34,424 bases of DNA from an uncultured Pelagibacteraceae bacterium (GTDB lineage: Bacteria; Pseudomonadota; Alphaproteobacteria; Pelagibacterales; Pelagibacteraceae), in contig CABXCB010000006.1 of the NCBI GenBank assembly GCA_902510635.1, forward strand, positions 1 to 34,424. The letters run 5' to 3'. The notes beneath the pieces were generated by a model that was not told the DNA's origin, searched no databases, and saw only the letters and a program-made list of their open reading frames with translations. Shown piece by piece: positions 63-16,390 of this stretch. The stretch's first letter is position 1. Every line of letters begins with the position of its first letter. The translations under genes and the position numbers were made by a program.

Positions 63-1789
63 ATATATTTGAAGAATATAAAAATAAATTAATAACAATT
101 ATCAAAAAAGCTCAAACTGATAATTTGTTAATGCTTCCAGATAATTTAAATGGAATTAATGTAGATTCAACTCCTCCCAAAATTGATTTTGATATATCAA
201 CTAATGTTTCTATGGTTCTTGCAAAACCAAATAATAAATCACCAAATGATTTAGCTCAAATTTTAATCGATCTTTTAAAAAATGAAGATAAAGATATAGA
301 GGAAATATCTTTTGCTAAACCTGGGTTTATTAATATTAAATTTAATAAAAATTACTGGAATAATTTTACTAATAATCTAATTAATTCACCTAATAACTAC
401 GGCTCATCAAATGAAAAAAAGAGGAAATATTTAGTTGAATTTGTTTCGGCTAATCCAACAGGACCTTTACATGTTGGACACTGTAGAGGTGCTATTTTAG
501 GAGATGTTATTTCAAATATTTTAGAATTTAATCAAAATGTTGTTGAACGCGAATATTATGTTAACGATTATGGTAATCAAATTTCTCATTTTAATAATTC
601 GATTTATTTAAGAATTAGAGAAAAATTGTATGATGAAAAATTTCCATTAGATAATCCAGACCTTTACCCGGGAGATTATTTAAAAGATATAGCTAACAAT
701 ATTATCAAAAATAATAAGGATATAAACTTTGAAAACTTTGAAGATATAGAAGAGCATTTAAAAAAAATCTCAGTTAATGAATCCTTAAATTTAATTAAAA
801 AAAACTTAATCGATCTAGGTATCAAACATGATAATTTTATAAGTGAGACAAAACTGGTTAATGATAATGAAGTTACAAAGGTAATTGAAAAACTTGAAAA
901 AACTAATCATGTCTATAGAGGTAAAATTAAAGCTCCGGAAGGTGAAGATCAAAGCAAGTGGACTGAAAGAGAGCAGCTATTGTTTAGATCTACTGATTTT
1001 GGTGATGATAAGGATAGAGCTCTACAAAAAAGTGATTTAACTTGGACATATTTTGCAAGCGATGTTGCTTACCATAATACAAAAATTAATAGAAAATTTG
1101 ATAAGTTAATAAATATTTTAGGTGCAGACCACGCTGGATATATAAAAAGAATTACATCTGTAGTCGAAGCTATTTCAGGAGAAAAAAACAAATTATCCTG
1201 CAAAGTAAGTCAGTTAGTAAAATTAATTAAGGACGGCAAACCATTTAAAATGTCAAAAAGAAAAGGTGATTACATAACTGTTGAAGATTTAATTAAAGAA
1301 GTAGGTAAGGACGCAACTCGTTTTATAATGTTAAGCAGAAGTAATGAAGTTGAACTTGATTTTGATTTTTCTAAAGTAAAAGAAAAATCTAAAGATAACC
1401 CACTTTATTATGTTCAGTATAGTTATGCCAGAATATGCTCCGTATTTAGAAATATTAATTTGGATATCAATGATGAATTAAAAATTAAAAATCATAATTA
1501 TAATTATACAAATGATGAGATTAAAATTTTAAAAAAAATTTCTGAATGGCCAAGATGTTTAGATATTACCTCAAGCAAATTGGAACCTCACAGAATACCT
1601 GTTTATTTATATGAGCTATCTTCAGAATTTCATTCTTATTGGAATAAAGGAAAAGCTGATATAAATAAAAGGTTTATTGATAAAGATAATAAAATTTCTG
1701 ATGATAAAATTGCTTTTTTAAAAGTTATTTCAATAGTAATAAAATTAGGCATGAATATATTGGGAGTTAATACTCCAGAAAAAATGTAA
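59..1789 (+). CDS. argS: arginyl-tRNA synthetase
   Basis: 576 aa; VEFVSANPTGPLHVGHCRGA (HIGH region), FKMSKRKGDYITVEDL (KMSK), DALR-type C-terminal region. Confidence 0.97.
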   Translation: MNIFEEYKNKLITIIKKAQTDNLLMLPDNLNGINVDSTPPKIDFDISTNVSMVLAKPNNKSPNDLAQILIDLLKNEDKDIEEISFAKPGFINIKFNKNYWNNFTNNLINSPNNYGSSNEKKRKYLVEFVSANPTGPLHVGHCRGAILGDVISNILEFNQNVVEREYYVNDYGNQISHFNNSIYLRIREKLYDEKFPLDNPDLYPGDYLKDIANNIIKNNKDINFENFEDIEEHLKKISVNESLNLIKKNLIDLGIKHDNFISETKLVNDNEVTKVIEKLEKTNHVYRGKIKAPEGEDQSKWTEREQLLFRSTDFGDDKDRALQKSDLTWTYFASDVAYHNTKINRKFDKLINILGADHAGYIKRITSVVEAISGEKNKLSCKVSQLVKLIKDGKPFKMSKRKGDYITVEDLIKEVGKDATRFIMLSRSNEVELDFDFSKVKEKSKDNPLYYVQYSYARICSVFRNINLDINDELKIKNHNYNYTNDEIKILKKISEWPRCLDITSSKLEPHRIPVYLYELSSEFHSYWNKGKADINKRFIDKDNKISDDKIAFLKVISIVIKLGMNILGVNTPEKM

Positions 1790-2043
1790 TGATTAAAGAA
1801 TTAAAGTACGTTTTTTATATAATAACAATATTTTTTTTTATTTTTTTTATTTCAAGATACTATTTTTCAGATGAATATAAAAAAAGATCTTATCGATCAT
1901 TAAGCTTAGTAGAAGATAATATTAATATTTTTTCTGAAAATCTTGTTATATTAGAGAATAATACAAATGATATAATTGAGTATGTTGAATATCAAAAAGG
2001 TAAAACAAAAAAAAAGTACCATTTTTGGGAATTATTAAAATGA
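1789..2043 (+). CDS. small single-TM protein of unknown function, in the slot often occupied by a SPOR-domain protein
   Basis: 84 aa ORF with N-terminal TM segment; overlaps argS stop and nagZ start (ATGA), so likely translated in the operon. Confidence 0.6.
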   Translation: MIKELKYVFYIITIFFFIFFISRYYFSDEYKKRSYRSLSLVEDNINIFSENLVILENNTNDIIEYVEYQKGKTKKKYHFWELLK

Positions 2044-2990
2044 TTAGTAGAAGAAGAAGCTTTATTACAGGTATTAAGGGTACAAAATTAAGTAAAAAAG
2101 AAGTTCTTTTTTTAAAAAAATATAAACCATGGGGTGTCATATTATTTTCTAGAAATATTGTATCTGTAACTCAGACTCAAAAATTGACATCTCATATAAA
2201 AAAAATATTCAATGATAAGAATTACCCTATTTTAGTTGATGAGGAAGGTGGTCGTGTTTCTAGGTTAAATAAATTTATTGATAATTCAATTTTTTCTGCT
2301 GAATTTTTTAGCAAGCTTTACAAAAATAATAAAAAAAAATTCTACATATATTATGAAGTATACATCAAACAAATTGCCTATCTGCTAAATTTATTAGGTA
2401 TCAACATAAACAATGTTCCTGTTTTAGATGTTAGGAGAAAAATAACTAATAATGTTATAGGAAATAGATCTTTTTCAACAGATCCATATTTAGTATCAAA
2501 ATTAGGTAAAATTTGTATTAATAAATTTCACGAAAATCACATAGGTACAGTATTAAAGCATATACCGGGTCACGGACTATCTAAATTTGATACCCACAAA
2601 AAATTACCAATTGTTAATCAAAATATTAATGATTTAAATAAAATAGATTTTTATCCTTTTAAAAAACAAAAATCCATATTAGCGATGACTGCACATATAA
2701 TTTTTCGTTCTATAGATAAAAAAAATACTGTCACTCATTCAAAAAAAGTTCTTAATATGATTAGAAAAAAAATAGGATTTAAGAACTTAATTATGTCTGA
2801 TGATATATCAATGAAAGCATTAAAATTTTCTATATCAAAAAATACAACCCAAGCTTTTAATGCTGGTTGTGATATAGTTTTACATTGTAATGGAAAATAT
2901 AATGAAATGTTAATGGTAGCTAAAAATTCTCCACTATTAAGTACTTTTACTATAAAAAAAACATCGCTATTATTAAATATAATTAGATAA
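2040..2990 (+). CDS. nagZ: beta-N-acetylhexosaminidase (glycoside hydrolase family 3)
   Basis: ILVDEEGGRVSRLN, GTVLKHIPGHG, DTHKKLPIV, MSDDISMKAL motifs. The supplied ORF starts at TTG 2025; ATG at 2040 (ATGA overlap with upstream stop) is the better start. Confidence 0.9.
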   Translation: MISRRRSFITGIKGTKLSKKEVLFLKKYKPWGVILFSRNIVSVTQTQKLTSHIKKIFNDKNYPILVDEEGGRVSRLNKFIDNSIFSAEFFSKLYKNNKKKFYIYYEVYIKQIAYLLNLLGININNVPVLDVRRKITNNVIGNRSFSTDPYLVSKLGKICINKFHENHIGTVLKHIPGHGLSKFDTHKKLPIVNQNINDLNKIDFYPFKKQKSILAMTAHIIFRSIDKKNTVTHSKKVLNMIRKKIGFKNLIMSDDISMKALKFSISKNTTQAFNAGCDIVLHCNGKYNEMLMVAKNSPLLSTFTIKKTSLLLNIIR

Positions 2991-2998
2991 TAGATTTT

Positions 2999-3733
2999 AT
3001 GAACGATTCTCTTTCATTTAATGTAAATCTTAATAACTTTAATGGACCATTAGAAGTGTTACTAGATTTAGCAAAATCTCAAAAAGTTGACCTTGAGAAA
3101 ATTTCTATTACTACGTTAGTGGACCAATTTCTCGATTTTATTAAATCAAAAGAAAAAATAAATTTAGAATTAGCTTCTGAGTATTTGCTTATGGCTACCT
3201 GGTTAACTTACTTAAAGTCCAAACTATTATTACCTGAATCTGATGAAGAAGAATTTAAAGCATTAGAAGTTGCTGAAAAGCTTAAACTCCAATTAAAAAA
3301 ACTTGAGCTAATTCGATTATTGTCTGATCAAATGTTAAAAAGAAAAAGATTAGGAAAAGATATTTTTATGAGGGGAATTAGAGGTAGAATTAAATCTATA
3401 TATAGTTCAAAATATTCTCTCAGTATGTTTGAAATTTTAAAAACTTACTCAACAATAATCATGTCTAGAGAATTTCAAAGAATGAATATACCTAAACTTC
3501 CTGTGTTTACAACCGAAGAAGGAATTAAAAGAATTAAAGAATTTTTTGGAAAATTAAATGATTGGAAAAATATTAACGAATTGATGCCTTTAGGTTTTTC
3601 TAAAAATAAAAAATTTAAACGAACTGGTAAAGCAGGAATATTTGCTGGATCCTTAGAACTTGCTAAAGAAGGTAATATATCAATAAAGCAAAATAATTTA
3701 TTTGATGATATTTTTATTAAGGAAAATAAATGA
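2999..3733 (+). CDS. scpA: segregation and condensation protein A
   Basis: FNGPLEVLLDLAKSQKVDLEKISITTLVDQFL...ASEYLLMATWLTYLKSKLLLP; adjacent scpB. Confidence 0.95.
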   Translation: MNDSLSFNVNLNNFNGPLEVLLDLAKSQKVDLEKISITTLVDQFLDFIKSKEKINLELASEYLLMATWLTYLKSKLLLPESDEEEFKALEVAEKLKLQLKKLELIRLLSDQMLKRKRLGKDIFMRGIRGRIKSIYSSKYSLSMFEILKTYSTIIMSREFQRMNIPKLPVFTTEEGIKRIKEFFGKLNDWKNINELMPLGFSKNKKFKRTGKAGIFAGSLELAKEGNISIKQNNLFDDIFIKENK

Positions 3734-4419
3734 AAAAATTAAAAAAAACAAATGTTGTAAATTTTCCATCATCTTTAAGTTATGGTGAGAAGGAAGTTGA
3801 GGCTATTTTGTTTGCTGCTGCTGAGCCTTTAGATGTAGATACTATTGAGTCTAAACTTCCAAAAAAAATTAATGTTTTAAGTATTCTTACTAAATTACAG
3901 AATATTTATAAAAATAGGGGAATTAATCTAGTTTGTATTTCTAAGAAGTGGTCTTTTAGAACTTCTGAAAGTTTATCAGAATTAATGTCTGAACAAAAAA
4001 CTGTAGAAAAAAAACTATCTAAAGCAGCTATAGAGACTTTGTCTATCATTGTTTATCACCAACCTGTTACTAGGGCTGAAATTGAAGAAATAAGAGGTGT
4101 TGCTTTTGGAGCAAATACACTTGAGATTCTAATGGAATTAAATTGGGTTAGAACACAGGGTAGAAAAGATGTTCCAGGTAAACCTATACAATACGGGACA
4201 ACAGAAGAATTTTTAAGTCATTTTAATTTACAAAATTTATCTGATTTACCAACAGTTGATGAACTAGGAACAGCTGGTCTTATCGATACTGCAAATGTCG
4301 ATTCAACTATTTTCGGCACAGGTAAATTTTATAAGGAACAAGAGGAAAAAAAGGAAAATATATACTCTGATATTGATGAAATGATAAGTAGCACTCTTAA
4401 AAATGATAAAGACAAATAA
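3730..4419 (+). CDS. scpB: segregation and condensation protein B
   Basis: EAILFAAAEPLDVDTIE...LSKAAIETLSIIVYHQPVTRAEIEEIRGV...GRKDVPGKPIQYGTTEEFLSHF; 4-nt overlap with scpA. Confidence 0.95.
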   Translation: MKKLKKTNVVNFPSSLSYGEKEVEAILFAAAEPLDVDTIESKLPKKINVLSILTKLQNIYKNRGINLVCISKKWSFRTSESLSELMSEQKTVEKKLSKAAIETLSIIVYHQPVTRAEIEEIRGVAFGANTLEILMELNWVRTQGRKDVPGKPIQYGTTEEFLSHFNLQNLSDLPTVDELGTAGLIDTANVDSTIFGTGKFYKEQEEKKENIYSDIDEMISSTLKNDKDK

Positions 4420-7278: not shown

Positions 7279-8844
7279 GTGTTATACTTTTCAAAATTAA
7301 AAATTATCTCAGTTTTAATTTTTACTTTTTTAATATCTTTTTTCACAATATCTAATTTTGTTAATACAGATAATAAGTTTTTTAAAAGAAATATAAATTT
7401 AGGTTTAGATCTTCAGGGTGGATCATATTTACTTTTAGAAATAGATAATTCACCAGTAGTAATACAAAAATTACAGAATAAACTTTCTTCAATTAAAAAT
7501 TTTTTTAAGGATAAAGGTTTAAAACCTAATAACTTTAAAATAATAGACAATAATAAAATTTCTTTTGTCGTTGATGAAGTTTCTTTAGATAATATTTTGT
7601 CTCTTTTAAATGACAAAGAAAGTGAAATTAATCCATACTTTCCAAGATTTAAAACGCACGAATTTGATGTTAAAGAAACTAAAGTTTTGTCGTCTATCAA
7701 TGTAACATTGCAGTATTCTGAATATGGTTTAGTTCTACTAAAGTCAGCATCGCAAGAGCAAGCTATTGAAATTGTCAGAAGAAGAGTAGATGAAATTGGA
7801 ACAAATGAACCTAATATTCTTAAAAGAGGAAATGACAGGATACTTGTTGAACTTCCTGGTTTAGATAATCCTGATAGAATTAAAAACTTGTTGGGAAGAA
7901 CTGCAAACCTTACATTTAGGTTTGTTACACAAAACGAAGAAGAGAGTTTTGGAACAGAAAGACTTTCATACGAAGATGGATCAGAAGTAATAATAAGTAA
8001 AAGAATAATTCTAAGTGGTGACAATTTAATTGATGCACAACCACGTATGGATAATCAATCAAATCAAACTGTTGTTTCATTTAATCTTGATAGAGTAGGT
8101 GCAAAAAAGTTTGCTAGAGCTACATCATCTGGTGTTGGAAAAAGACTTGCTATAATATTAGATGGAAAAATTATAAGTGCACCAAATATAGTTGAACCAA
8201 TTCTTGGTGGAGCAGGTCAGATAACTGGTGATTTTACTTTTCAATCTGCTACTGATTTAGCATTATTATTAAGATCTGGAGCTTTACCAGCTCCAATGAA
8301 TATAATAGAAGAAAGAACAGTTGGTCCTGATTTAGGTCAAGATTCTATAAACGCTGGAATACTATCTCTTATTATTGGTTTTGTATTAGTTGTTCTTTTT
8401 ATGATAGCTAAATATAAAATTTTTGGCGCAATAGCTAATGTAACATTAATAACTAATTTATTTTTACTAATAGGTGTTCTTAGCTTATTTGAGGCCACGC
8501 TAACACTTCCAGGTATAGCAGGGATAATTTTAACAGTAGGTATGGCGGTGGATGCAAATGTTTTAATTTATGAAAGAATTAAAGAGGAAATTAAAAGCGA
8601 AAATAACAAAATTTTAGCATTTGATAGTGGTTACATTAAATCAAAAACAACAATTTTAGATGCTAATATAACTACACTGATTGCTGCAATGATTTTATTT
8701 ATTTTAGGATCTGGGCCAGTAAAAGGATTTGCTCTAACTTTAGGTGTGGGAATTTTAACAACGTTATTCTCGGTATATTATATTGCTCGATTACTAACTG
8801 CTTTATATGTAATTAAAAATAAACATAAGGAAAAATTAATATAA
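7279..8844 (+). CDS. secD: protein translocase subunit SecD (GTG start)
   Basis: NLGLDLQGGSYLLLEID; EIVRRRVDEIGTNEPNI; GMAVDANVLIYERIKEE. Confidence 0.97.
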   Translation: MLYFSKLKIISVLIFTFLISFFTISNFVNTDNKFFKRNINLGLDLQGGSYLLLEIDNSPVVIQKLQNKLSSIKNFFKDKGLKPNNFKIIDNNKISFVVDEVSLDNILSLLNDKESEINPYFPRFKTHEFDVKETKVLSSINVTLQYSEYGLVLLKSASQEQAIEIVRRRVDEIGTNEPNILKRGNDRILVELPGLDNPDRIKNLLGRTANLTFRFVTQNEEESFGTERLSYEDGSEVIISKRIILSGDNLIDAQPRMDNQSNQTVVSFNLDRVGAKKFARATSSGVGKRLAIILDGKIISAPNIVEPILGGAGQITGDFTFQSATDLALLLRSGALPAPMNIIEERTVGPDLGQDSINAGILSLIIGFVLVVLFMIAKYKIFGAIANVTLITNLFLLIGVLSLFEATLTLPGIAGIILTVGMAVDANVLIYERIKEEIKSENNKILAFDSGYIKSKTTILDANITTLIAAMILFILGSGPVKGFALTLGVGILTTLFSVYYIARLLTALYVIKNKHKEKLI

Positions 8845-9746
8845 TGGAAAATAAAAATATTCCTTTTAATAAATTTTATAAAAGATTTAACATTTTATCT
8901 TTATTGTTAATATTAATTTCACTAATTTTATTAATATTCAAAGGTTTAAATTATGGTGTAGATTTTAAAGGTGGTACATTAATTGAACTAAGAAGTTTAG
9001 ATAAATCATTAAATATTTCTGATTTAAGAAAATCATTTAATAATTTGAATCTTGGAGATGTTACAGTTAAAAAATTTGGCAAAGAAAATGATTATGTTAT
9101 TAAATTTGAAAAAAAACAATCAATTGAAGAAAATTTTATTGAAAATATTAAAATTGAATTAACTAATGATATTGGCAAAATTTTTGAATTTAGAAGAGTT
9201 GAGAGTGTTGGACCAAAAGTTAGTAGTGAATTATTAAAATCAGGTATAATTGCAATTGCCTTGTCATTAGGTGCCATGCTCATATACATATGGATAAGAT
9301 TTGAATGGCAGTTTAGTCTTGGAGCTATTAGTGCAGTATTCCATGATGTGATTATAACACTTGGTTTTTTCTCATTATTAAATTTTGAAATAAACTTATC
9401 AATTGTGGCTGCTGTACTTACTATAGTAGGTTATTCTATGAATGATACTGTAGTTATCTTTGATCGTGTAAGGGAAAATTTAAAAAAATATTCAGATATA
9501 AAAATTTATGAAATTACAAATATTTCAATAAATGAAACTTTATCTAGAACAATAATTACATCTATAACAACTTTGCTTGCACTTTTATCCATATTTATAT
9601 TTGGCGGTGCTATACTTAAAGGTTTTTCATTTGCTATGATTTTGGGCGTTATAGTTGGTACTTATTCTTCTATATATATTGCTAATCCTATATTGGTTAA
9701 ACTGAATGTTTCTCAAAAAACTATAATAAAAGAAGAAAGCGAATAA
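8844..9746 (+). CDS. secF: protein translocase subunit SecF
   Basis: GLNYGVDFKGGTLIELR; VESVGPKVSSELL; IVGYSMNDTVVIFDRVREN. Confidence 0.97.
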   Translation: MENKNIPFNKFYKRFNILSLLLILISLILLIFKGLNYGVDFKGGTLIELRSLDKSLNISDLRKSFNNLNLGDVTVKKFGKENDYVIKFEKKQSIEENFIENIKIELTNDIGKIFEFRRVESVGPKVSSELLKSGIIAIALSLGAMLIYIWIRFEWQFSLGAISAVFHDVIITLGFFSLLNFEINLSIVAAVLTIVGYSMNDTVVIFDRVRENLKKYSDIKIYEITNISINETLSRTIITSITTLLALLSIFIFGGAILKGFSFAMILGVIVGTYSSIYIANPILVKLNVSQKTIIKEESE

Positions 9747-9748
9747 AT

Positions 9749-10369
9749 TTAATATAAATTTTGTGCTGCTACCATTGTTAACAACATTGGCAAAGAAAGA
9801 AGAGTATTGGTTCTAGATGCTATTAAAGCTTTTTTAGCTGCGATAGGTTTTTCTTCAGGTGTTGCTTCAACAATCCCTAACACTTTTTTTTGATTTGGCC
9901 ATATTATAAACCAAACATTAAAAGCCATGATTAGACCAAGCCACATACCAATACCTATAGCCGTATATTTACCTCCACCACTGCCAACACCTAATGTCAT
10001 TGCTTCATGAAGATATCCATTTAGATAAGCAACTAACAAGCCTGTAACAATTGTTACAAATGCAGCCCATCTAAACCAAAATAAAGCAGCTGGTGCTATA
10101 ACTTTTGTAATAGCTGGTTTATGTTCATCGCTAATTTTTGGCATATTTGGCACTTGGACAAAATTAAAATACCATAATAATCCTATCCACATAATTCCAG
10201 CAACAACATGAAAATATCTAAAAAACCAACTCCAAAAAAGTTGATCAAAAGCAAATCCGCCACCAGCAATAAATAAAAATAAAAACAATAATATTGCTAA
10301 AATTATTGAAGTATGAACTACTTTTGATAAAGATCCAAAAAAATCACTCATAAGTATATTTTTATACAC
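9749..10369 (-). CDS. PuuD-like (urate hydroxylase membrane domain) integral membrane protein
   Basis: 206 aa multi-TM; FFRYFHVVAGIMWIGLLWYFNFVQVPNMPK, AALFWFRWAAFVTIVTGLLVAY, GMWLGLIMAFNVWFIIWPNQKK resemble the PuuD/DUF989 membrane domain; no cytochrome c domain. Confidence 0.65.
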   Translation of the reverse strand: MYKNILMSDFFGSLSKVVHTSIILAILLFLFLFIAGGGFAFDQLFWSWFFRYFHVVAGIMWIGLLWYFNFVQVPNMPKISDEHKPAITKVIAPAALFWFRWAAFVTIVTGLLVAYLNGYLHEAMTLGVGSGGGKYTAIGIGMWLGLIMAFNVWFIIWPNQKKVLGIVEATPEEKPIAAKKALIASRTNTLLSLPMLLTMVAAQNLY

Positions 10370-10385: not shown

Positions 10386-13265
10386 TTAAGCTGTTTTTTT
10401 AAATTTATTGTTCAAAATATGTTTAAGAAATTGGCCTGTATAGCTTTCTTTTATGTTGCATATTTCTTCAGGCTTACCTTCTGCTACTATTTGACCACCT
10501 TTGATACCACCTTCTGGTCCCATGTCGACAATATAATCAGCTGTTTTTATTACATCTAGATTGTGCTCTATAACTACCACACTATTTCCTGTTGCAACAA
10601 AAGTATGTAAAATTTCTAATAATTTTTTAATATCATGTTGATGTAATCCTGTTGTTGGTTCGTCTAAAATATACATGGTTCTACCAGTTGATCTTTTTGA
10701 CAGTTCTTTTGCAAGTTTAATTCTTTGAGCCTCTCCTCCAGAAAGAGTTGTAGCTTGTTGACCAATTTTTATATAACCAAGTCCAACCTTTTTTAATGTT
10801 AATAATTTAGACCTTATATTAGAAATATTTTCAAAATAATTACATCCTTCATCAACAGTCATATTTAAAACATCAGCAATACTTTTATCTTTAAATTTTA
10901 CTTCCAAAGTTTCTCTATTATATCTTGTTCCTTTACATTCATCACATTGAATATAAACATCTGGTAAAAAATGCATTTCGTATGTAATTACCCCATCACC
11001 TTCACATGCTTCACACCGTCCACCTTTAACATTGAATGAAAACCTTCCAGGTTTGTATCCTCTAGTTTTAGATTCAGGTAAAGCTGTAAACCAATCTCTT
11101 ATTGGTCCAAATGCTCCTGTATATGTTGCAGGATTTGATCTAGGTGTTCTGCCAATTGGCGATTGATCTATATCAATTACTTTATCAATTAATTCAATAC
11201 CTTTAAAACCTTTAAATGGCATTGGTATTTTTCTTGATTTATTATTATTTAATGTAAGATTTAAAGCATTATATAAAGTTTGTAGAACCATTGTCGATTT
11301 TCCACTTCCCGAAACTCCAGTTACACAAGTAAGACTTCCTAAAGGAATTTTAAAATTAACATTTTTTAAATTATTACCAGTTGCACCATTAATTTCTAAA
11401 AATCTTCCATTTTTTGCAAGTCTTCTATTTTTTGGTATTGGTATAAAAAATTTATGAGATAAATATTTTCCTGTTATACTTTTTTCACTTTTTTTAATAT
11501 CTTCATAACTTCCTTCAACAATAACTTCTCCACCATTATTTCCTGCTTCCGGTCCTAGATCTATAATATGATCTGCATTTTCCATAGTTTCAGTATCATG
11601 TTCTACGACTATTACAGTATTTCCTAGATCTCTTAATCTTTTTAAGGCATTTATCAATTTTACATTATCTTTTTGATGCAATCCAATTGAAGGCTCATCT
11701 AAAACATATAAAACACCAGTAAGACCAGAACCTATTTGTGAGGCTAATCTTATTCTTTGAGATTCACCGCCTGATAACGTTCCTGATTCCCTAGAAAGTG
11801 TAAGATAATCAAGACCAACGTTTAATAAAAAATCTAGTCTTTCATTGATTTCTTTTAAAATATATTCAGCAATTTTTAATTGTTTACTATTTAACTTTTT
11901 TTCTAATGATTTAAACCACTCTATAGAATCTAGTATTGATTTTTCTGTTATTTCACTAATATTAAAATTATCAATTTTAACACATAAAGCCTCTTCTTTT
12001 AACCTATAACCATTGCATCTTTCACATTTAGTATCAGATTGATATTGTGAAATTTCTTCTCTTTTCCAATCACTGTCCGTTTCCAGGTATCTTCTCTCTA
12101 GATTATTTATTACACCTTCAAATGTTTTTTTATGTGAATATTTTTCATATCCATCATCGTAAGTAAATTTTATTTCTTCATCATCAGATCCATAAAGAAT
12201 TATATCTTTAATTTTTTTTGGTAATCTTTCCCATTTTTGATCCATTGGAAAATTATAATGTTTTGAAAGTGATGATAATGTTTGTGCATAATATAAAGTT
12301 GTGGTTTTTGCCCATGGCAAAATTGCTCCATCAGCAATTGTTTTTTTTTCATTAGGCACAACTAGATTTGGATCAACATTCAATTTTACTCCTATACCGT
12401 CACATTCTTCACACGCTCCATAGGGACTATTAAAAGAAAATAATCTTGGTTCAATTTCTTCAATCGTAAAACCACTTTCTGGACAAGCAAATTTTGTTGA
12501 AAATATAATTTTTTCTATTTTTCTAAATTTTTTAGGCAACGTTTCATTTTCGTATTCTACAAACAATAAACCGTTTGCTAAATTTACTGCTGTTTCTACA
12601 CTTTCTGCTAATCTATTACCTAAAGATGAGTTTATTACAATACGATCTACCAAAACCGATAAATCATGCTTAATTTTTTTGTTTAATTCAGGAACATTAT
12701 CAATTTCATATAATTTATTATCTATTTTAATTTTTCTGAAACCTCTTTTTTTGTAAGATAAAATATCTTTTTTATATTCACCCTTACGTCCTCTAACTAC
12801 AGGTGCATATAAATAAATGGTTGATTTTTTTTGGTAATTCTTTAATTTTATCTACAATTTGACTTATAGTTTGTGAGGTTATGGGTTTTCCTGTAAATGG
12901 AGAGTAGGGAACACCTGCTCTAGCATACAATACTCTCATATAATCATAAATTTCAGTCACAGTAGCTACAGTTGATCTTGGATTCTTGGAAGTATTTTTT
13001 TTTGTTCTATTGATATAGCAGGACTAAGACCTTCGATTAAATCAACTTTGGGTTTTTTCATTTTATCCAAAAATTGTCTCGCGTATGCAGACAAGCTTTC
13101 CACATATCTTCTTTGTCCTTCTGCATATATAGTATCAAATGCTAATGATGATTTTCCAGACCCAGAAAGACCAGTTATAACAATAAATTTATCTTTTGGA
13201 ATTTCTACAGAAATATTCTTTAAATTATGTTCTTTTGCACCTTTAATAACTATCTTTTTGATCAT
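10386..13265 (-). pseudogene. uvrA: excinuclease ABC subunit A, reading frame interrupted by two homopolymer indels (possible sequencing error or slippage site)
   Basis: N-terminal ORF 12966..13265 ([66 protein letters not shown]) and C-terminal ORF 10386..12653 (two ABC signatures, zinc-finger motifs, [19 protein letters not shown]). The gap translates in a second frame as [57 protein letters not shown], then returns to the original frame as [29 protein letters not shown]. Confidence 0.92.
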
Positions 13266-13355
13266 ATTTTTGGTTGCTTTATTTTAATTAAATTAATATT
13301 CAAGTAAAATTGTGATATATATATATAAAAATCAAATCAAAAAAATTTAAATTTT

Positions 13356-13805
13356 ATGGCAGGTAGCTTAAATAAAGTATTATTGATAGGGCGTTTAGGC
13401 GCAGACCCAGAAATAAAACAAATGGTCAATGGTAAAAGTGTGGCCAGGTTGAGTTTGGCAACAAGTCAAACATGGAAGGATAAAAATACTGGTGAAAAAA
13501 AAGAAAAAACTGAATGGCACAGAATAGTTGTTTTTAATGAAGGTCTTGTAAATGTTGTTCAACAATATTTGAAAAAAGGAGCTCAAGTTTATATAGAAGG
13601 TCAAATTTCAACTAGAAAGTGGAAAGATGAAAAAAGTGGTCAAGATAAGTATTCAACAGAAGTTGTGATTCAAGGATTTAATTCTTCATTAACTATGCTT
13701 GGTGGTGGTGGTCAAAATTCTATTTCTTCTGAAGAAAATAAACAGAAATTCGACCAAGATTCACAATCGCCCCAAAACGAATTGGATGACGATATTCCAT
13801 TTTAG
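13356..13805 (+). CDS. ssb: single-stranded DNA-binding protein
   Basis: [21 protein letters not shown]...[39 protein letters not shown]-terminal DDDIPF; divergent from uvrA as is common. Confidence 0.97.
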
Positions 13806-13810
13806 TTTTT

Positions 13811-16390
13811 ATGCAAAAAGACGAAATTTCTAATAATCAAAATATAACATCAATATCGATGTATGATGAAATGAGTTCATCATATTTATCGTATGCTATG
13901 AGCGTTATAATTAGTAGAGCTCTACCTGATATAAGGGATGGACTAAAACCTGTGCATAGAAGAATAATTTTTGCAATGCACAAAGGAGGTTTTGATTGGT
14001 CAAAACAATTTAGAAAATCTGCAAGAATAGTTGGAGATGTAATTGGTAAATACCATCCTCATGGAGACCAAGCTGTCTATGATGCTTTAGTTAGAATGGT
14101 ACAAGATTTTTCGATGAGTTTACCTCTTATAGATGGTCAAGGAAACTTTGGTTCTATAGATGGAGATCCTCCTGCTGCAATGAGATATACTGAAACAAGA
14201 TTATCTAAAATTTCACAATTTTTAATTGATGACATTGATAAAGATACAGTTTTATTTAAAAATAACTATGATGAAACTGAAAGAGAGCCGACTGTTCTAC
14301 CTGCGCAGTATCCAAATTTACTTGTCAATGGTGCTGGCGGTATTGCCGTAGGCATGGCCACAAGTATACCTCCGCATAATCTAGGTGAAGTAATAGAAGG
14401 AACTCTTGCATTGATAGATAACAAAGATATTAAAATTAATGATTTAATGAAACATATACCCGGTCCAGACTTTCCTACAGGTGGTGTTATTATTGGAAAA
14501 AATATTATTAAGGAAGGTTACAAAACTGGAAGAGGTTCATTTAAAATAAGAGGTGAAATTCAAGTAGAAAATTTAAAAAATAATAGAGATAGACTTGTAA
14601 TTACCTCTATACCATATCAAGTAAACAAATCAGTTTTGAATGAAAAAATAGCAGATCTTGTTAGAGAAAAAAAAATTGAAGGTATAAAAGATATACGTGA
14701 TGAATCAAATAGAGAAGGTATTAGAGTTGCAATAGATTTAAAATCTGGTGTAGAACCTGAGACAATTAAAAGACAATTATACAAATTCACCTCTATTGAA
14801 AGTTCTTTTGGTTTCAACACTTTAGCAATTGTCAAAAATAAACCAAAGAATTGTAATCTTAAAGAATTTCTAGAACAATTTTTAATTTTTAGAGAAGATG
14901 TAGTAATCAAAAAAACAAAATTTGATTTAAAAAAAGCTGAAGATAGAGCTCATATTTTGATTGGATTATCTATTTCTGTTGAAAATTTAGATAAAGTTAT
15001 TAAAATTATCAGATCTTCAAAATCACCTGATGAAGCAAAAAAAGTTCTTCTAAAAAATAAATGGAAAAGTACAAAATCACAAAAATTTATTAAATTAATA
15101 GAAAATAAAAAAAATCTATTACATTATACGCTGACTGAACCTCAGGTAAATGCTATTTTAGAACTAAGACTTCAAAAATTAACTGCTCTTGGAATTAATG
15201 AAATAGAAATGGAAATTAATAAGTTATCTAACTTAATTATAAACTATAAAAAAATACTGAATTCTAAAAAAGAATTACTTAAAGTAATAAGCAACGAACT
15301 TAAAATGATAAAAGAAAAGTTTTCAGTCCCAAGAAGAACCCAAATAATTGACGCAGTGTTAAATTATGATATTGAAGAAACTATTCAGAAAGAAAGTGTA
15401 ATTATTACTGTTACATTACAAGGTTACATAAAAAGGGGAGCCCTTAATACTTTAAAACAACAAAAAAGAGGCGGTAAAGGCAAAACTGGAATAGTCACAA
15501 GAGAAGAAGACTCTGTGGTTCAAACATTATCAGTTAATACTCATACGCAGGTATTATTTTTTTCTACAGAAGGTTTGGTTTATCGTATTAAATCATGGAA
15601 AATACCTGAAGGATCTTTAAGTTCAAGAGGTAAATCATTATTTAATATTTTACCTTTAAAAAACCATCAATCAATTAGTTCTATCATGCCATATCCTGAT
15701 CAAAACACTGACTCTAAAGGTATGTATATTATTTTTGCAACATCAAACGGCAAAATTAGGAAAAATAACCTAGAAGATTTTTCTTCAATAAACACTTCAG
15801 GCAAAATTGCAATGAAACTTGATAGTAATGATAAAATAGTAGGAGTAAAAATTTGTAAAGATGATCAAGATATTATTTTAAGCACAAAATTAGGAAAATG
15901 CATTAGATTTGAATCAAAAAAACTTAGAGTTTTTAAAGGGAGATCATCAAAAGGTATAAGAGGTATTAATTTACATGATAATGACAATATTGTTTCATTA
16001 TCAATAATTAATCATGAAAATATTAAGAAAAATGGAAAATTAAATAATAATGAAAAATCTGAATTAAAAGCTAAAGAAAAGTTCATATTATCAATAACTG
16101 AAAATGGTTTTGGTAAAAGAACAGATCATAATGATTATAGAGTTACTAACAGAGGTGGTAAAGGAATTATAGGAATAATTAATTCCTCTAGAAATGGTAA
16201 TGTATCATCTTCATTCCCAGTTAATGAAGGTGATGAGATATTAATTTCCACAAACAGAGGTAGAGTTATTAGAACTGCTGTAAAAGAAATAAGAATTGCA
16301 GGTAGAAATACTCAAGGTGTTAGAATAATCAAACTTTCTGGTGAGGAAAAAGTAGTTTCAGCAATTAAAATTGATGATAATTTACTTTAA
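13811..16390 (+). CDS. gyrA: DNA gyrase subunit A
   Basis: [61 protein letters not shown]; GyrA-box-like QQKRGGKG. Confidence 0.96.

Follow-up and report, generated by a model that had tools for sequence, protein, structure and literature searches.

Paired homopolymer frameshifts in uvrA of a SAR11 draft genome most likely reflect an artefact of the draft assembly

Does a marine bacterium whose assembled uvrA gene is interrupted by two frameshifts live with a broken excinuclease, mend the message during transcription, or owe the breaks to the way its genome was put together? The question arises from a window of 34,424 nt, the whole stretch of DNA analysed here, which is a complete contig (C6) of a 912-kb, 71-contig and 68%-complete draft genome of the Pelagibacteraceae (SAR11), hereafter G000. 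An earlier note on this DNA had offered three explanations without choosing among them, namely sequencing or assembly error, recent or phase-variable inactivation, and rescue by RNA polymerase slippage at poly(A).

Read from its start on the minus strand, the uvrA frame passes through the first Walker motif (GLSGSGKSS) and SIEQ into an A9 tract and meets a stop ten codons further on. The conserved UvrA sequence then continues in a second frame as far as an A8 tract, beyond which it returns to the first. On the minus strand the two tracts read GAAC-A9-TACTTCC (13003-12995) and TTACC-A8-TCAACC (12832-12825). The features of the locus are as follows.

10386..13265, minus: uvrA (excinuclease ABC subunit A), frameshifted in the assembly; matches to TIGR00630 and NF001503
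12966..13265, minus: N-terminal ORF of 99 aa with the Walker A motif, ending in ILPRIQDQL and a stop; ORF list and translation
12995..13003, minus: tract 1 (mRNA A9, +2), where nearly all relatives have A7; sequence and relatives
12833..12994, minus: segment displaced by the two tracts, intact and conserved in its own frame; sequence and comparison with relative L059
12825..12832, minus: tract 2 (mRNA A8, +1), where relatives have A7 or an interrupted run; sequence and relatives
10386..12653, minus: downstream ORF of 755 aa with a TTG start, in the frame of the N-terminal ORF; ORF list and NF001503 match

The match to TIGR00630 covers positions 1-923 with 1307.7 bits against a cut-off of 729.8, across frames only and with six stops inside, while the C-terminal part of the gene scores 1170 bits with NF001503 (UvrA). 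Sequence and translation confirmed the description in the earlier note of an A9 and an A8 tract displacing ~57 codons, and also that the N- and C-terminal parts share one frame. That note had further called the two indels mutually cancelling. The arithmetic is right, but the product is not restored, since six stops lie in the unshifted frame between the tracts; as assembled, the gene is predicted to yield a 99-aa N-terminal fragment and, if translation starts internally, a 755-aa C-terminal piece that lacks the first Walker A motif. Nor does the cancellation carry meaning: paired insertions in thiG of the same genome and in uvrA of another draft (G354) do not sum to zero, and selection for a net shift of zero was therefore rejected. 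Long A runs were likewise rejected as special signals, because hundreds are present in open ORFs; in the sampled genome, ORFs of at least 450 bp hold 512 A8, 214 A9 and 72 A10 runs, and ~800 runs of A8-A11 fall within open ORFs. The gene adjoining uvrA (9749-10369, minus) has a partial Pfam match only, to the urate oxidase N-terminal (membrane) domain, and no NCBIfam match.

We compared the two tracts with those of close relatives, a check that the earlier note had pointed to. By UvrA, the close relatives are Pelagibacteraceae (SAR11), nearly all of which bear AG-nnn names, have NODE contigs and come from single cells. Of about 100 relatives, nearly all show A7, or a run broken by a G, at tract 1, and one (L122) shows A8; at tract 2, nearly all of those that could be read show A7 or an interrupted run. 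Measured against these lengths, the tracts of the window have gained two bases and one base, respectively; the alternative counts that the note had left standing, -1 and -2 from A10 tracts, do not hold. The A9/A8 pair was found in none of these ~100 relatives, and the variant is thus private to one assembly; the other broken copies of the gene break elsewhere or singly. Length variation at the same site amounted to A7 in nearly all and the one A8, in a comparison with relatives of other species, the closest of which is ~87% identical in the region at the DNA level. Open, full-length uvrA was found in about 280 genes of the genus.

A gene released from selection is expected to decay, and the displaced segment was examined for this sign of a pseudogene. 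Against the nearest relative (L059), pN was 0.020 in the N-terminal part, 0.023 in the displaced part and 0.027 in the C-terminal part, with pS between 0.52 and 0.59, and a single residue differs from L059 across the 57 displaced codons. Relaxed selection was thus not found in any of the three gene parts (pN ~0.02-0.03 vs pS 0.5-0.6), which bears out the view that the rest of uvrA is undecayed. Because the displaced frame is still strictly conserved, the indels must be either very recent or not real, and do not mark an old pseudogene.

Broken copies of uvrA occur elsewhere in the genus. Five genomes other than G000, among ~285 other full-length genes, carry frameshifts (G149, G216, G314 and G373 once each, G354 twice), all of them one-base changes at A or T runs and all at gene positions other than those of the window. 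The change is a gained base in G149, G216, G314, G354, L122 and L098, and one base fewer in G373. Frameshifted drafts are scattered singly through the genus, none of the frameshifts is common to several of them, and about 2% of full-length uvrA genes are affected. In L122 (1690-1720) the frameshift sits at tract 1 itself, with A8 for A7, and in another SAR11 draft, L098 (10410-10435), it lies a few codons after tract 2, with T8 for T7. The unrelated drafts G149 and G373 (L219 about 1070; L222 about 2005) share the A run at which they are broken, near codon 306, with a base more in one and a base fewer in the other. A different kind of irregularity was seen in G106, whose contig C24 carries two full-length uvrA genes with equal scores in opposite orientation (1227-4022 and 12288-15083), probably an inverted-chimera artefact of genome amplification.

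To place the two insertions in their genomic setting, 775 kb of the 912 kb of G000 were compared with G012, a congeneric genome in a single contig, over 603 genes (187,279 aa, 562 kb), and every candidate frameshift was inspected. Nine frameshifting insertions were found, all of them gained bases and spread over four contigs, giving a density of 1.6 per 100 kb of coding sequence. Beyond the two in uvrA, seven insertions affect five further genes; those in C18, C12 and C1 were called mainly against the one reference genome, and thiG against about 95.

C6, uvrA, minus: two insertions; comparison with G012
C12:5302-6071 (L149), minus: thiG, A7 to A8 and A6 to A7, ~330 bp apart; ThiG by Pfam
C18 (L155): tsaC/Sua5, two insertions, A5 to A6 and GG to GGG; Pfam
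C18 (L155): sigma-70 family factor of the rpoH type, A5 to A6; Pfam
C18 (L155): polyprenyl synthase, A8 to A9; Pfam
C1, near its start: family-4 glycosyltransferase, A5 to A6; Pfam

Among about 95 other genomes of the genus, nearly all have an open thiG. Contig C18 accumulates four insertions in 14.5 kb, with breaks near 4400, at 7730-7860 and near 9600, and looks like a patch of poor sequence. Two random homopolymer events within 350 bp have a computed probability of 0.001-0.003, and close pairs occur in three genes (uvrA, thiG and tsaC), so that the clustering exceeds chance. Some of the lengthened runs, A5 and GG, are not places where slippage naturally concentrates. Well-studied bacteria cannot, or can hardly, do without TsaC/Sua5, the heat-shock sigma factor and farnesyl/polyprenyl synthase. 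The breaks in these three genes are therefore unlikely to be real, and insertions of the error type were found in G000 also outside uvrA, in genes that are mostly essential elsewhere (thiG and tsaC/Sua5 twice each, the sigma factor, the polyprenyl synthase and the glycosyltransferase).

Several other candidates did not withstand inspection. Those in C4, C8/C9, C20, C22 and others proved to be start or stop differences, and many flags of an early survey were set aside as coming from antisense ORFs. A candidate in the essential mraY gene was rejected for G000, because the break sits in the reference: in G012 (C1:185369-186456; L160-L292 region) mraY is split at an A9 run that is A8 in G000, where the frame is open. 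Several further candidate frameshifts turned up in G012; either this genome too carries errors or its split mraY is a candidate for slippage rescue.

The composition of the draft also bears on whether the repair pathway as a whole has been lost. We did not find uvrB or uvrC in the sampled contigs of G000, though nearly all relatives have both. The two genes lie together inside a block of ~62 kb that is absent from these contigs, and contig C7 starts at the edge of the block. Being part of one missing block, their absence gives no information on pathway loss, and loss of the whole UvrABC pathway was rejected in favour of a single assembly gap due to incompleteness. Judging by its close relatives and its contig structure, in which the last and smallest of the 71 contigs measures 2,165 bp, G000 itself appears to be a single-cell genome.

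How, then, did the two tracts come to be lengthened? One answer takes the indels as real and very recent, arising when A7 tracts slipped during replication in a lineage that lacks MutS and MutL; single-cell sequencing would then have caught a short-lived deleterious mutant or a pseudogene at an early stage. The genus is suited to such an event, since mutS was not found and mutL had no match above the cut-off in any of 61 genomes, with positive controls run, and loss of mismatch repair raises the rate of homopolymer indels; for uvrA taken alone a real mutation is therefore possible, tract 1 has expanded independently in L122, and a displaced frame free of decay is what a very recent event should leave. 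Against this, mutation is unlikely to have produced two independent frameshifts in one gene at a distance of 170 bp, the same genome has pairs in thiG and tsaC as well as breaks in the rpoH-like sigma factor and the polyprenyl synthase, some of the affected runs (A5, GG) are too short to be slippage hotspots, and a single assembly gap, the 62-kb block, would seem to account for the missing uvrB and uvrC. Neither the clustering nor the short runs nor the other genes would follow from loss of mismatch repair, and recent inactivation would need an error-like pattern to have arisen elsewhere in the genome by coincidence; we regard it as unlikely. Phase-variable switching of uvrA at the A tracts could appeal to the different tract length at the same site in L122, but the reading frame is open in about 280 full-length uvrA genes, the runs at which the few others are broken differ, and a housekeeping repair gene that needs two tracts would make a poor switch, so that this part of the earlier proposal found no support and is hardly credible.

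A further possibility is that uvrA is functional and rescued by RNA polymerase slippage at poly(A), as proposed for Buchnera and Blochmannia. The genome is AT-rich, the gene holds A9 and A8 runs, and its frame is conserved between the tracts and on both sides of them. Rescue would nevertheless require two slips of different sense in one transcript (+1 mod 3 at tract 1 and -1 mod 3 at tract 2) at tracts that, among ~800 A8-A11 runs in open ORFs, are in no way special; the conservation, common to the relatives, is older than the indels and would be just as expected of errors; and the frameshift is conserved in no relative. Across the transcriptomes of E. coli and Buchnera, slippage at A/T runs is mostly single-base insertion, and no transcription error restored a frame (PMC5574713). 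Rescue found no support and is very improbable, and just as improbable is its wider form, in which a free-living, mismatch-repair-deficient SAR11 bacterium would tolerate paired frameshifts in uvrA, thiG and tsaC through slippage that yields some full-length protein.

The explanation that the genome-wide pattern supports is an amplification, sequencing or assembly error of the draft, to which we assign a probability of about 0.87. We infer error at the uvrA tracts because the indels are absent from nearly all relatives, the frame is under full purifying selection, and clustered insertions across the genome break essential genes too. Spurious extra bases would have entered at whole-genome amplification, at library PCR or when the single-cell genome was assembled, in patches that were poorly covered; both the low coverage of these patches and the exact step at which bases were added are what we infer. 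The cell itself very probably had an ordinary, intact uvrA. Several points weigh against the error reading: tract 1 gained two bases, which is rarer than one; the genus lacks mutS and a full-length mutL, raising true homopolymer mutation and making a real mutation more plausible here than in most bacteria; and the insertions outside uvrA were called mainly against one reference genome.

The split gene is accordingly not a real feature in all likelihood, and its chief value lies in caution, since single-cell SAR11 drafts are widely used to draw conclusions about gene loss and clustered homopolymer insertions can make uvrA, thiG and essential genes look inactivated. Counting frameshifts per contig is a cheap way to tell patches of poor sequence from biology. 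Were the frameshifts real, they would mean that nucleotide excision repair has been lost in a lineage of the sunlit ocean, or that slippage rescue is routine in a free-living bacterium.

Three known systems invite comparison, and a literature search on Pelagibacter, homopolymers and frameshifts gave nothing directly relevant. The poly(A) frameshifts of Blochmannia and Buchnera, which transcriptional slippage may correct (PMC3017870), resemble those of G000 in being A-run indels of AT-rich genomes in otherwise intact-looking genes, but they occur singly per gene and some are kept between strains or species, whereas in G000 there are two per gene, in one draft only, and other error-like insertions stand nearby in the assembly. 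Work on SAR11 has reported the lack of MutS/MutL mismatch repair (PMC12374537), in agreement with our failure to find mutS and mutL in the genomes of this genus, although its subject is recombination and divergence and not homopolymer frameshifts. A likeness to our reading is offered by the workflow for marine single-cell genomes, which retains contigs > 2,000 bp and whose data descriptor, from tests of this type of workflow on benchmark cultures, puts the errors at 3.0 indels, 5.0 mismatches and 1.5 misassemblies per 100 kbp (PMC6122165); indel frequencies are also among the benchmark measures of the WGA-X method paper (PMC5519541). Small indels at a few per 100 kb and contigs > 2 kb match the density and contig structure of G000, whose frameshifting insertions, at 1.6 per 100 kb of coding sequence, fall below the published indel figure, while the clustering and the homopolymer preference seen in G000 are not described in the benchmark.
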